Of a stretch of DNA of 64,000 bases, positions 53 to 43,706 are shown piece after piece. The translations under genes were made by a program, and so were the position numbers. The stretch comes from Herminiimonas sp. (GTDB taxonomy: Bacteria > Pseudomonadota > Gammaproteobacteria > Burkholderiales > Burkholderiaceae_D). Each line of letters opens with the position of its first letter. Position 1 is the first letter of the stretch. Under the pieces are notes generated by a model, which ran no database searches, was not told where the DNA came from, and saw only the letters and a program-made list of their open reading frames with translations. The stretch is from positions 1-64,000 of the forward strand of contig JAQGMO010000333.1 in the NCBI GenBank assembly GCA_028292315.1, given 5' to 3'.

Positions 53-79
53 AAAAAAAAGCCCGCACAGGGAGCGGGC
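53..79 (-). terminator. Intrinsic terminator, minus strand
   Basis: Read on the minus strand, a GCCCGC/GCGGGC stem (positions 79-74 with 66-61) with a 7-nt loop is followed by eight T residues (positions 60-53). It lies about 130 bp past the stop of the SET-domain gene and is its likely terminator. Confidence 0.75.
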
Positions 80-117
80 ATAAATATATATCAAAGGAGG
101 AGACATAGAGGAGACAA

Positions 118-39788: not shown

Positions 39789-39794
39789 TATAAT
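39789..39794 (+). promoter_or_regulatory. -10 box of metH
   Basis: A perfect TATAAT lies 6 bp before the first stem of the leader RNA, so transcription would start at or just before the aptamer. The -35 is not clear. Confidence 0.6.
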
Positions 39795-39800
39795 TTTCAT

Positions 39801-39878
39801 GCGCCGATTTGATTGAATAAGTCAAACCCAGCTTGCGGGCGCCGGGGTAAAGTCCCAATAAATACTGCTAAAGCGGAC
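39801..39878 (+). ncRNA. SAM-II-like riboswitch upstream of metH
   Basis: A 5-bp P1 (GCGCC 39801-39805 with GGCGC 39838-39842) encloses a loop with GATTTG (39806-39811) and GCTTGC (39831-39836). Downstream are ATAAATA and GCTAAA (39867-39872). GCTT (39831-39834) can pair with AAGC (39871-39874), giving an H-type pseudoknot. As I recall, GATTTG, GCTTGC and GCTAAA are the conserved words of the SAM-II class, otherwise best known from Alphaproteobacteria. The gene that follows makes methionine, the precursor of SAM. Confidence 0.6.
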
Positions 39879-39885
39879 GACGAAT

Positions 39886-39922
39886 AACCCGGCCCGTTTT
39901 ACAGCGACTGGCCGGGTTTTTT
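39886..39922 (+). terminator. Intrinsic terminator (attenuator) before metH
   Basis: AACCCGGCC (39886-39894) and GGCCGGGTT (39910-39918) form a perfect 9-bp stem followed by six T (39917-39922), ending 25 bp before the metH ATG. CGGGC (39836-39840) and CGGG (39843-39846) of the aptamer can pair instead with GCCCG (39892-39896) and CCCG (39888-39891), which would be the antiterminator. Confidence 0.8.
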
Positions 39923-39947
39923 ATTTATTGACCGAAAGAGCAACAAC

Positions 39948-42900
39948 ATGAATCGCGATCCCATTAATTCCACCGAGAACCTGCTGCGTGATCTCTTGTC
40001 CCGCCGCATCCTGATACTCGATGGCGCGATGGGCACGATGATCCAGCAATACCACTTGAGCGAAGAAGATTATCGCGGTACGCGTTTCATCGATTTCACG
40101 GTGCCGGGCAAGGAACTGTTCGTCAAGGGCAATAACGAATTGCTCACCTTGACCCAGCCGCACATCATCAGCGAGATTCATGAAAAATATCTCGCGGCTG
40201 GCGCCGACCTGATCGAGACCAATACGTTCGGCGCCACTACGGTCGCGCAGGATGACTATCACATGGGGCATCTGGCTTACGAGATGAACCTGGCCGCCGC
40301 GCGGCTGGCGCGCGCCGCCTGCGACAAATATGCCACGCCGGACAAGCCGCGCTTTGTTGCCGGCGCGCTCGGCCCGACGCCGAAAACCGCTTCGATTTCG
40401 CCGGACGTCAATGATCCGGCCGCGCGCAATGTTACTTTCGACCAGCTGGTTTCCGCCTATCTTGAGCAAACGCGCGCACTGGTCGAAGGCGGCTCCGATG
40501 TGCTGCTGGTGGAAACCATCTTCGACACCCTGAATTGCAAGGCGGCGCTGTTTGCCATCGATACCTTTTTCGAACAGTCGGGCCAGCGTTTGCCGATCAT
40601 GATTTCCGGCACGGTCACCGATGCATCAGGCCGAATCCTGTCCGGGCAAACCGTGCCGGCATTCTGGAATTCGGTGCGCCATGCAAAGCCTCTCACGGTC
40701 GGCCTCAATTGTGCGCTGGGCGCCGCGCTGATGCGTCCGTACGCCGAAGAGCTGTCTAAAATTGCCGACACATTCGTCTGTATCTATCCCAACGCCGGCT
40801 TGCCGAATCCGATGTCGGACACCGGCTTCGATGAAACACCCGATGTCACTTCTTCACTGTTGGAAGATTTTGCGGAAAGCGGCTTTGTCAATATCGCGGG
40901 CGGTTGCTGCGGCACCACGCCCGAGCATATCAAGGCGATCGCGGAAGTGGTTGCGACAATTGCGCCGCGCAAGGTTCCAGAAAGTACGCACACAATGCGC
41001 CTGTCCGGGCTGGAGCCATTCACAATCGATGATGATTCCCTGTTCGTCAATGTCGGCGAGCGCACCAATGTCACCGGTTCAAAGGCATTTGCACGCCTGA
41101 TCCTCAACGAGCAATATGACGAGGCATTGGCAGTGGCGCGCCAGCAAGTCGAGAACGGTGCGCAAATCATCGATATCAACATGGATGAAGCGATGCTCGA
41201 TTCAGTCGCGGCGATGACCCGATTCCTGAACCTGATCGCATCCGAACCGGATATCTCGCGCGTGCCGATCATGATCGATTCTTCCAAGTGGTCGGTGATC
41301 GAGGCTGGCTTGAAATGCGTGCAGGGCAAGTCCGTCGTCAATTCGATTTCGATGAAAGAAGGCGAACAGGAGTTCCTGCGCCAGGCCAGCCTGTGCCGCC
41401 GTTACGGCGCGGCCGTGATCGTGATGGCTTTCGATGAAAAGGGACAGGCCGACACCTTTGAACGCAAGATCGAGATTTGCCGGCGCGCTTATGATCTGCT
41501 CACCGGCAAGGTGGGATTTCCGCCGGAAGACATTATTTTCGATCCCAACATTTTTGCGATCGCAACCGGCATTGAGGAACACAATAATTACGCCGTCGAT
41601 TTCATCAATGCGACGCGCTGGATTCATGAGAACCTGCCGCATGCCAAGATCAGTGGCGGCGTATCGAACGTCAGCTTCAGTTTCCGCGGCAACGACCCGG
41701 CGCGCGAAGCGATTCATACGGTATTCCTTTACCACGCGATCAAGGCTGGAATGACGATGGGAATCGTGAACGCCGGCATGGTCGGTGTCTATGACGATCT
41801 CGACCCGGTGTTGCGCGAGCGCGTGGAGGATGTGGTACTGAACCGCCGCGATGATGCGACCGAGCGCATGATTGAAATCGCCGGCACGCTGAAGGCCGGC
41901 GGCAAGAAGGAAGAACAGAGTCTCGAGTGGCGCAACGGTACCGTGCAGAAGCGGCTGGCGCACGCGCTGGTGCATGGCATCACCCAGTGGATCGTCGAGG
42001 ATACCGAAGAGGCGCGCCAGGAGTTGCTGGAAAACGGCGGGCGGCCGATTCATGTCATCGAGGGACCGCTGATGGACGGCATGAACATCGTCGGCGATCT
42101 GTTCGGCCAGGGAAAAATGTTTTTGCCGCAGGTCGTCAAGTCGGCGCGCGTGATGAAGCAGGCAGTGGCGCACCTGATTCCCTATATCGAAGAAGAGAAG
42201 CTGCTGGAAGAAAAAAGGACGGGTGTCGCGGCCAAGCCGAAGGGCAAGATCGTCATCGCAACCGTCAAGGGCGACGTCCATGACATTGGCAAGAATATCG
42301 TCTCGGTCGTCCTGCAATGTAATAACTTTGAAGTCGTCAACATGGGCGTGATGGTGCCATGCTCGGAAATCCTGGCCAGGGCCAAGGCCGAGAATGCCGA
42401 TATCATCGGCCTGTCGGGCCTGATCACGCCGTCGCTGGAAGAAATGGCTTATGTCGCGAAGGAGATGCAGCGCGATCCGCATTTCCGCACGCTGAAAATT
42501 CCGTTGCTGATCGGCGGCGCAACGACTAGCCGCGCACATACCGCGGTCAAGATCGCGCACAATTATGAAGGGCCCGTGGTCTATGTGCCCGATGCGTCGC
42601 GTTCGGTATCGGTGGCGCAGTCGCTGCTGACGCCGGAGCAGCGCGATCAGTATATCGCGGAGATCGCGCAAGACTATGCGCGGATTCGTGAGCAGCATGC
42701 GAATAAAAAGGCAGTGCCGTTGCTATCGATCGCCGATGCGCGCAAGAATAAGGCGCGGCTGGCATTCGATGGAAAATTTGCGCCGGTAAAGCCGAAATTC
42801 ATCGGCCGCCGCGTGTTCAGGAACGTGGACCTGGCAACGCTTGCGCAATACATCGACTGGGGGCCGTTTTTCCAGACCTGGGATCTGGCCGGGCCATTCC

Positions 42901-43706
42901 CCGCCATTCTGAAAGATGAGGTGGTCGGCGAGTCGGCCAGCAAGGTATTTGAAGAAGGACAGGCATTGCTGAAAAAAGTGATCGATGGACGCTGGCTCAC
43001 CGCCAATGGCGTGATCGCGCTGTTGCCCGCCAATAGCGTCAATGACGATGACATTGAAATCTATACCGATGAAACCCGCGCCCAGGTTGCCTTCACCTAT
43101 TATGGCTTGCGCCAGCAGACGGTCAAGCCGGTGATTGACGGCGTGGCCCGACCGAACCAATGTCTGGCCGATTTCATTGCGCCGAAAGAATCGGGCGTGG
43201 CCGATTACATCGGCATGTTTGCCGTGACGGCCGGCATCGGCATCGAGAAATACGAAAAGCGTTTCGAAGATGCGCATGACGATTATTCGTCGATCATGCT
43301 GAAGTCGCTGGCCGACCGGCTGGCGGAAGCATTCGCCGAGCATTTGCATGAGCGCGTGCGCAAGGATCTCTGGGGTTATGCGCAGGATGAAGCCCTGGGC
43401 AATGAAGCCCTGATCAAGGAAGCGTATTCCGGCATCCGTCCGGCGCCCGGTTATCCGGCCTGCCCCGAGCATACCGTCAAAGCCGATATGTTCAGGCTAT
43501 TGCAATGTGAAGAGATTGGCATGCAGCTGACCGATTCATTCGCGATGTTTCCGGGCGCCTCGGTGTCGGGATTCTATCTTGCGCATCCGGAGTCGAAGTA
43601 CTTCAGTGTCGGCAAGATCGGCGCCGACCAGGTGAACGATATGGTGGCGCGGCGCGGGGTTTCGAAGGAAGATGCCGAGCGCTGGCTGGCTCCTAATTTG
43701 TCGTGA
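39948..43706 (+). CDS. metH: Cobalamin-dependent methionine synthase
   Basis: The 1252-residue enzyme is full length (E. coli 1227). It has the homocysteine domain ([15 protein letters not shown] near 21; zinc site with [10 protein letters not shown]), the methyltetrahydrofolate domain ([14 protein letters not shown]) and the cobalamin domain with [10 protein letters not shown] (His778 as the lower ligand). The C-terminal SAM-dependent reactivation domain follows. It methylates homocysteine to methionine. The leader carries a SAM-II-like riboswitch and terminator, so SAM probably switches it off. The reactivation domain requires SAM and a flavodoxin-type donor, not seen here. Confidence 0.98.

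Follow-up and report, generated by a model that had tools for sequence, protein, structure and literature searches.

SAM-II riboswitches (RF00521, SAM_alpha) are H-type pseudoknots with a GATTT / CTTGC / GCTAAA core; they have been listed in Bordetella, and many members are associated with terminators (Corbino et al. 2005, PMC1273637). Their published targets are metA, metX, metY, metC, and others. The residues around the SAM pocket that are wholly conserved in structure 2QWY are U10 to U12, U20, U21, G22, C23, and G42 to A47 (PMC3764141). In betaproteobacteria, a "metXZ RNA element" with a terminator-antiterminator mechanism was described 5' of metX(W) and metZ (Leyn et al. 2014, PMC4239095). 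According to the available text of that paper, SAM_alpha was found only in alphaproteobacteria, and the metXZ element was not connected to SAM-II. Three other systems are close in structure. The "SAM-II long loops" family (RF01726; Weinberg et al. 2010, PMC2864571), described in Bacteroidetes and in marine samples, is of SAM-II type with enlarged loops; SAM-V (RF01826; PMC2704228, PMC6061858) shares the SAM-binding core and the pseudoknot and acts on translation, with the Shine-Dalgarno sequence in its last helix; and SAM-II elements in tandem are also known (PMC9481103).

We examined a 64,000-nucleotide stretch of DNA from Herminiimonas sp. (the window) in which a SAM-II-type pseudoknot aptamer (positions 39801 to 39876) lies between a TATAAT and an intrinsic terminator, 5' of metH. 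The element shares with RF00521 the H-type pseudoknot, the core, the 13 ligand-site residues, a promoter just 5' of P1, and a terminator after P2. Its loops 1 and 3, unlike those of RF00521, carry long inserts; it scores below detection with that model, and we did not find metH among the published SAM-II targets. With the metXZ element, compared through the available text of PMC4239095, it shares conserved blocks, occurrence in betaproteobacteria, a proposed pseudoknot, and a potential terminator. The metXZ element has six conserved blocks with a terminator after them, and blocks of the same kind occur in the window as well as in leaders of metX and metZ. Judged from sequence and to the extent of that text, the window element is the metXZ RNA element, which we here join to the SAM-II class. 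Two differences stand beside this. Whereas the available text gives one metXZ element per genome, only 5' of metX or metZ, the window copy precedes metH, a second copy in the same genome precedes metX (G000:C344, L002), and second copies are frequent. The same text reports no sequence conservation in the terminators, whereas here the CCCG of the 5' arm is conserved.

Enlarged loops are also a feature of RF01726, but this model gave no match to the window at E values up to 10. SAM-V was rejected because the sequence between the end of P2 (39876) and the start codon (39948) holds a terminator, and P2 itself contains no Shine-Dalgarno sequence. Doublets occur among the relatives, 5' of other genes, whereas the metH leader of the window holds one aptamer. 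The initial annotation had considered a terminating, betaproteobacterial SAM-II unusual. Since SAM-II in Bordetella and terminators in many SAM-II members were already published (PMC1273637; for the metXZ element, the available text of PMC4239095), that view was mostly wrong.

Architecture of the metH leader

The leader parts that the initial annotation had named (TATAAT, P1, GATTTG, GCTTGC, GCTAAA, a GCTT/AAGC pairing, and the terminator) all lie where it had placed them, with GATTTG at 39806 to 39811, GCTTGC at 39831 to 39836, GCTAAA at 39867 to 39872, and GCTT complementary to AAGC (Table 1). The 9-bp terminator at 39886 to 39918 is as described there, with a fold of -20.2 kcal/mol (z = -4.3). 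From the position of TATAAT, the transcript would start at about 39800 to 39801, the first base of P1. No -35 hexamer was found 16 to 18 nucleotides from the TATAAT, and a consensus promoter scan gave no -35/-10 pair. The assignment of the downstream gene as metH through TIGR02082 is firm.

Table 1. Features of the metH leader (window coordinates)
Feature	Positions	Strand	Pairing, equivalence, or basis
-10-like TATAAT	39789..39794	+	Sequence; TATAAT or TTATAAT at the same place in relatives' metH leaders
P1 5' strand, GCGCC	39801..39805	+	Pairs with 39838-39842
GATTTGA	39806..39812	+	U39808-U39810 correspond to SAM-II U10-U12 (ligand site) by alignment; roles per PMC3764141
Loop-1 hairpin, UUUGAUU/AGUCAAA	39808..39826	+	Pairs the ligand-site U-tract; folding and metH-leader comparison
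P2 (pseudoknot) 5' strand, CCAGCTTGC	39828..39836	+	A39830 bulged; alignment
CGGG, proposed antiterminator strand overlapping P1	39836..39839	+	Complementary to CCCG in terminator 5' arm
P1 3' strand, GGCGC	39838..39842	+	Sequence, alignment
Loop-3 insert with small hairpin GGG/CCC	39845..39856	+	Fold; variable among relatives
A-rich loop 3, AATAAATACT	39857..39866	+	AAAT invariant in alignment A1
Second candidate antiterminator, CTG-C-TAAAGCGG (39865-39876) with CCGTTTTACAG (39894-39904)	39865..39904	+	Fold
P2 3' strand, GCTAAAGCGG	39867..39876	+	G39867-A39872 correspond to SAM-II G42-A47 by alignment
Intrinsic terminator hairpin, 9 bp	39886..39918	+	Stem AACCCGGCC (39886-39894) / GGCCGGGTT (39910-39918)
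Terminator U-tract	39917..39922	+	First two T inside stem; sequence
metH, cobalamin-dependent methionine synthase, gene under proposed control	39948..43706	+	NCBIfam TIGR02082

Across the 64-kb window, the spaced motif GATTTG..GCTTGC..GCTAAAGC has a single occurrence, and it is found in 0/100 shuffles. Folding of the entire leader shows no significant stability (z = -1.3), so energy alone would have missed the element, which is revealed by conservation. An Rfam scan of the window gave no SAM-II, SAM-V, SAH, or cobalamin match, and matches to rnk_pseudo and anti-hemB were set aside as low scoring and mostly due to the terminator. The sole Rfam match at the gathering cutoff is a Betaproteobacteria toxic small RNA (RF02278; positions 53 to 116, minus strand; 53.6 bits), which also adjoins the metH leader in two relatives (L012 and L018).

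Relationship to SAM-II

The initial annotation had named the lack of a model hit as a refuting outcome. For the window itself this outcome holds (no RF00521 match at E values up to 10), but it is answered by homologues that the model does find. Six short-loop homologues exceed the curated cutoff of 36 bits: L136 (45.4 bits), L132 (44.8 bits), L121 (41.7 bits), L102 (39.4 bits; 5' of metH), L120 (38.1 bits), and L116 (36.9 bits). L029, L306, and L322 fall slightly under it. Across the family, RF00521 exceeded its own cutoff in just 2/97 genomes, and it misses most long-loop members of the element.

When aligned, the window keeps 13/13 SAM-II ligand-site nucleotides, U39833, U39834, G39835, and C39836 corresponding to U20, U21, G22, and C23. 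The GATTT, CTTGC, and GCTAAA blocks occur together in 103/107 related elements, and an alignment of 24 elements has 38 invariant columns, including GCGCCGATTTGA, TTGC, GGGCGC, AAAT, and nearly all of GCTAAAGC. The two U residues that sense the sulfonium are invariant among the relatives, like all SAM-contact residues (roles according to PMC3764141). In loop 3, which in SAM-II is A-rich and lies along P1, the AAAT before GCTAAA is conserved, and a variable insert is also present.

Base pairing in the related leaders bears out the pseudoknot proposed in the initial annotation. P1 pairs in all relatives and is nearly invariant across the 107 elements, with rare C-G/G-C swaps, so that little covariation can come from it; its sixth pair does covary (C-G, U-A, or A-U). 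At the second outer P2 pair, where C-G, U-A, and A-U all occur, pairing is Watson-Crick in 63/107 elements, against 35.7 expected by permutation (0/5000), a figure that is no strict probability because the sequences are related. At the level of sequence, the leader element is confirmed as a SAM-II-type pseudoknot aptamer, a long-looped relative of SAM-II, with its architecture, ligand-site conservation, and pseudoknot covariation established by comparison.

Distribution of the element and metH as a target

A DNA search of relatives found the same leader in many genera, with the core alone at further places, and anchored extraction recovered the same blocks 5' of metX, metZ, and metH. A covariance model (R1) built from the aligned elements identified the element (E ≤ 0.001) in 163/245 genomes of the family, 203/300 genomes of the order, and 125/274 genomes of the class. 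Element copies precede metX, metZ, metH, and metK, all of them methionine or SAM genes.

It is important to note that many metH copies went into R1 and that metH frequencies from its searches are biased; we therefore counted metH leaders separately, starting from the gene and not the motif. In this sample, which took the best metH matches first and so leans toward near relatives, 24/50 metH leaders of the same family carry the element under a strict pattern, and four more (L256, L290, L291, and L300) carry it slightly altered. At the order level, 6/48 metH leaders in the gene-based sample carry it. Copies 5' of metH occur in seven families of the order (labeled f1, the family of the window, f3, f10, f18, f23, f29, and f36). 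Among named organisms with metH-type copies, Noviherbaspirillum, Herminiimonas, Paucimonas, and Lacisediminimonas are the nearest, which agrees with the betaproteobacterial origin read from the window in the initial annotation; Herbaspirillum sp. and other Oxalobacteraceae also carry it.

No publication that places metH under SAM-II turned up in a literature search, although many subscription papers were outside its reach. Within that search, metH is new as a gene target of the element. The comparison thus assigns the betaproteobacterial metXZ element to the SAM-II class, and metH joins the list of genes that it precedes. One metH element (L017, 1338-1548, minus strand) keeps the core while its loop 3 has grown to >100 bases.

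Antiterminator pairing

In the initial annotation, part of P1 and the downstream CGGG were proposed to pair with the 5' arm of the terminator as an antiterminator. Comparison of terminators supports an antiterminator based on the CGGG that overlaps the P1 3' strand. CCCG is present in the 5' arm of 113/117 terminators that follow elements and of 17/170 background terminators, the latter being predictions by the same routine in the remainder of the window and in 400 kb from related genomes. With only distinct arms and strong terminators counted, the figures are 70/72 and 8/46. The terminator and its CGGG:CCCG complementarity are thus established comparatively. Pairing of CGGG with CCCG excludes P1 on one side and the terminator on the other, and this mutual exclusion gives the geometry of an antiterminator. 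The antiterminator logic that the elements appear to have in common, with CGGG in P1 and CCCG in the terminator, is new here. The dual role of the P1 3' strand, which would also be the antiterminator strand, may explain why P1 is invariant.

The extent of the complementarity differs among the gene types. In metX copies it extends further, GCUUGCGGGC pairing with GCCCG-AAGC (-17.0 versus -12.2 kcal/mol), and in metZ copies the terminator often has UUUAGC, complementary to GCUAAA. For metH and metZ, the energy of the duplex between aptamer strand and terminator is hardly better than background, and only the position of CCCG is. Total duplex energy was therefore rejected as evidence of antitermination, since it works for metX and hardly for metH or metZ, and we used CCCG enrichment alone. 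We also rejected pairing between loop 3 and the terminator as a metH-specific antiterminator, since it was no better than permuted pairs within metH (24/100).

In the window, with the 3' arm of the terminator absent, the lowest-energy fold pairs 39865-39876 with 39894-39904 (-28.0 kcal/mol); in a competing fold (-27.2 kcal/mol), loop 3 extends the pairing of the CGGG strand with the CCCG at 39893-39896. The first of these, the second candidate antiterminator of Table 1, has weaker comparative support. Addition of the 3' arm tips the balance toward the terminator (-39.7 versus -30.1). The decision of the switch would therefore be kinetic, as it is for other switches that act on transcription.

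Proposed control of metH by SAM

The explanation that we favor, and regard as highly probable, is that SAM turns metH off through a SAM-II-type aptamer that favors the terminator. When SAM is plentiful, it would bind the pseudoknot formed by P1 and P2, with the U-tract of GATTT in the P2 groove. The bound pseudoknot would sequester CGGG in the P1 3' strand and GCUAAAGCGG in the P2 3' strand, and with both held, the terminator (39886-39922) would form and metH would not be transcribed. When SAM is low, CGGG would pair with a CCCG in the 5' arm region of the terminator, GCUAAAGCGG would pair with the apical sequence of the terminator, or both; either pairing would block the terminator, and metH would be read. 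The OFF logic of the initial annotation is supported in this way, though we infer the identity of the ligand as SAM, the switching itself, and its direction. Several observations weigh against the explanation: the window has no RF00521 match and few family genomes exceed the cutoff of that model, P1 is too invariant to covary much, the U-tract is predicted to be paired in loop 1, and the metH and metZ duplex energies are close to background.

A predicted loop-1 hairpin specific to metH copies of the family

In metH copies of the same family as the window, loop 1 contains AGTCAAA, which pairs with UUUGAUU, a tract that includes U10 to U12. For U10 to U12, the mean pairing probability in metH copies is 0.88, compared with 0.40 when the inserts are shuffled; in metX copies, in which the loop-1 hairpins begin after the U-tract, it is 0.01. 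The pairing segment (G/A)TCAA is kept in 21/24 element-bearing metH leaders of the gene-based sample; the hairpin loop, by contrast, varies, as does loop 3 over its whole length. L020 has TTGAC on the 5' side of the hairpin and GTCAA on the 3' side, which is consistent with selection for pairing. This conserved hairpin, present in the metH copies of this family only, is new here.

By energy modeling, the hairpin should compete with SAM binding and weaken it, and the simplest hypothesis would be that metH has a higher SAM threshold than metX. We put forward tentatively, as somewhat less probable than its opposite, that the hairpin is a built-in competitor by which metH copies that keep the SAM-II core are tuned or gated, so that SAM would act only at high concentration or a second signal or further factor would be needed to open the hairpin. 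The pairing of U10 to U12 in metH but not metX copies and the retention of (G/A)TCAA in otherwise variable loops argue for such gating. Against it, nested models, which ignore the energy of the pseudoknot and of the ligand, give the hairpin a low stability (roughly -2.5 to -7 kcal/mol), and the metH copies of other families have a short loop 1 with no hairpin. Gating would refine the explanation that SAM turns metH off, not oppose it; metH would still be controlled by SAM, with a set point different from that of metX. If so, one ligand would exert graded control over two steps of one pathway. The hairpin offers a clean test of riboswitch retuning in which the binding site is unchanged.

Alternative explanations

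Homocysteine is the substrate that metH consumes, and loop 1 of the metH copies differs systematically from that of metX and metZ members. Both points would suit a descendant of SAM-II that now senses another ligand, such as SAH or homocysteine. We consider this improbable, as the SAM-contact residues are invariant, including both U residues that sense the sulfonium, and SAH sensing in the same genome is served by an SAH riboswitch. The near invariance of P1 and its flanks in primary sequence could instead mark a protein site, in a protein-bound leader or a constitutive attenuator with read-through at a fixed rate; the covarying pseudoknot pair, the match to the SAM-II core, and the homologues above the RF00521 cutoff speak against this, and we give it an equally small chance. 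That the window has no Rfam match for the leader would fit a chance resemblance next to an ordinary terminator. Such an origin is refuted by conservation and is extremely improbable, given the absence of the motif from the shuffled sequences and the presence of the element in 163/245 family genomes at the threshold above, 5' of methionine genes.

Other element copies and neighboring RNAs

Several further loci bear on how the element is arranged. L022 carries two nearly identical elements in a single genome, separated by 1 kb (1510-1580 and 2537-2606), with no metH, metX, or metZ directly downstream; these are possibly duplicated or orphan copies. In L120 and L121, the element precedes metK, and an SAH riboswitch (RF01057, ~60 bits) lies further downstream, so that predicted SAM- and SAH-sensing RNAs succeed each other in one locus. 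The one SAH riboswitch in the genome of the window is at L228 (G000:C231:8151-8228; 61.6 bits).

A variant element, often with GATTTAA or GAGTTAA, ACAACTTGC, and GCTAAAGCG, stands in tandem 3' of the first element's terminator at L091 (1663-1739), L132 (1357-1428, minus strand), L133 (552-640), L135 (343-420), L104, L106, L116 (319-378), L123 (301-360), and L125 (1389-1451, minus strand), and it has no clear terminator of its own. It is followed by a MATE efflux gene in L091, L132, L133, and L135, a link that looks odd, by a RelA/SpoT-like HD gene and then metK in L104 and L106, and by other genes at further loci. On the opposite strand of elements L030, L125, L121, and others, RF02424 (Bp2_287, a predicted Burkholderia sRNA) gives matches below its cutoff, so that RF02424 may represent the metX-type element read in antisense.
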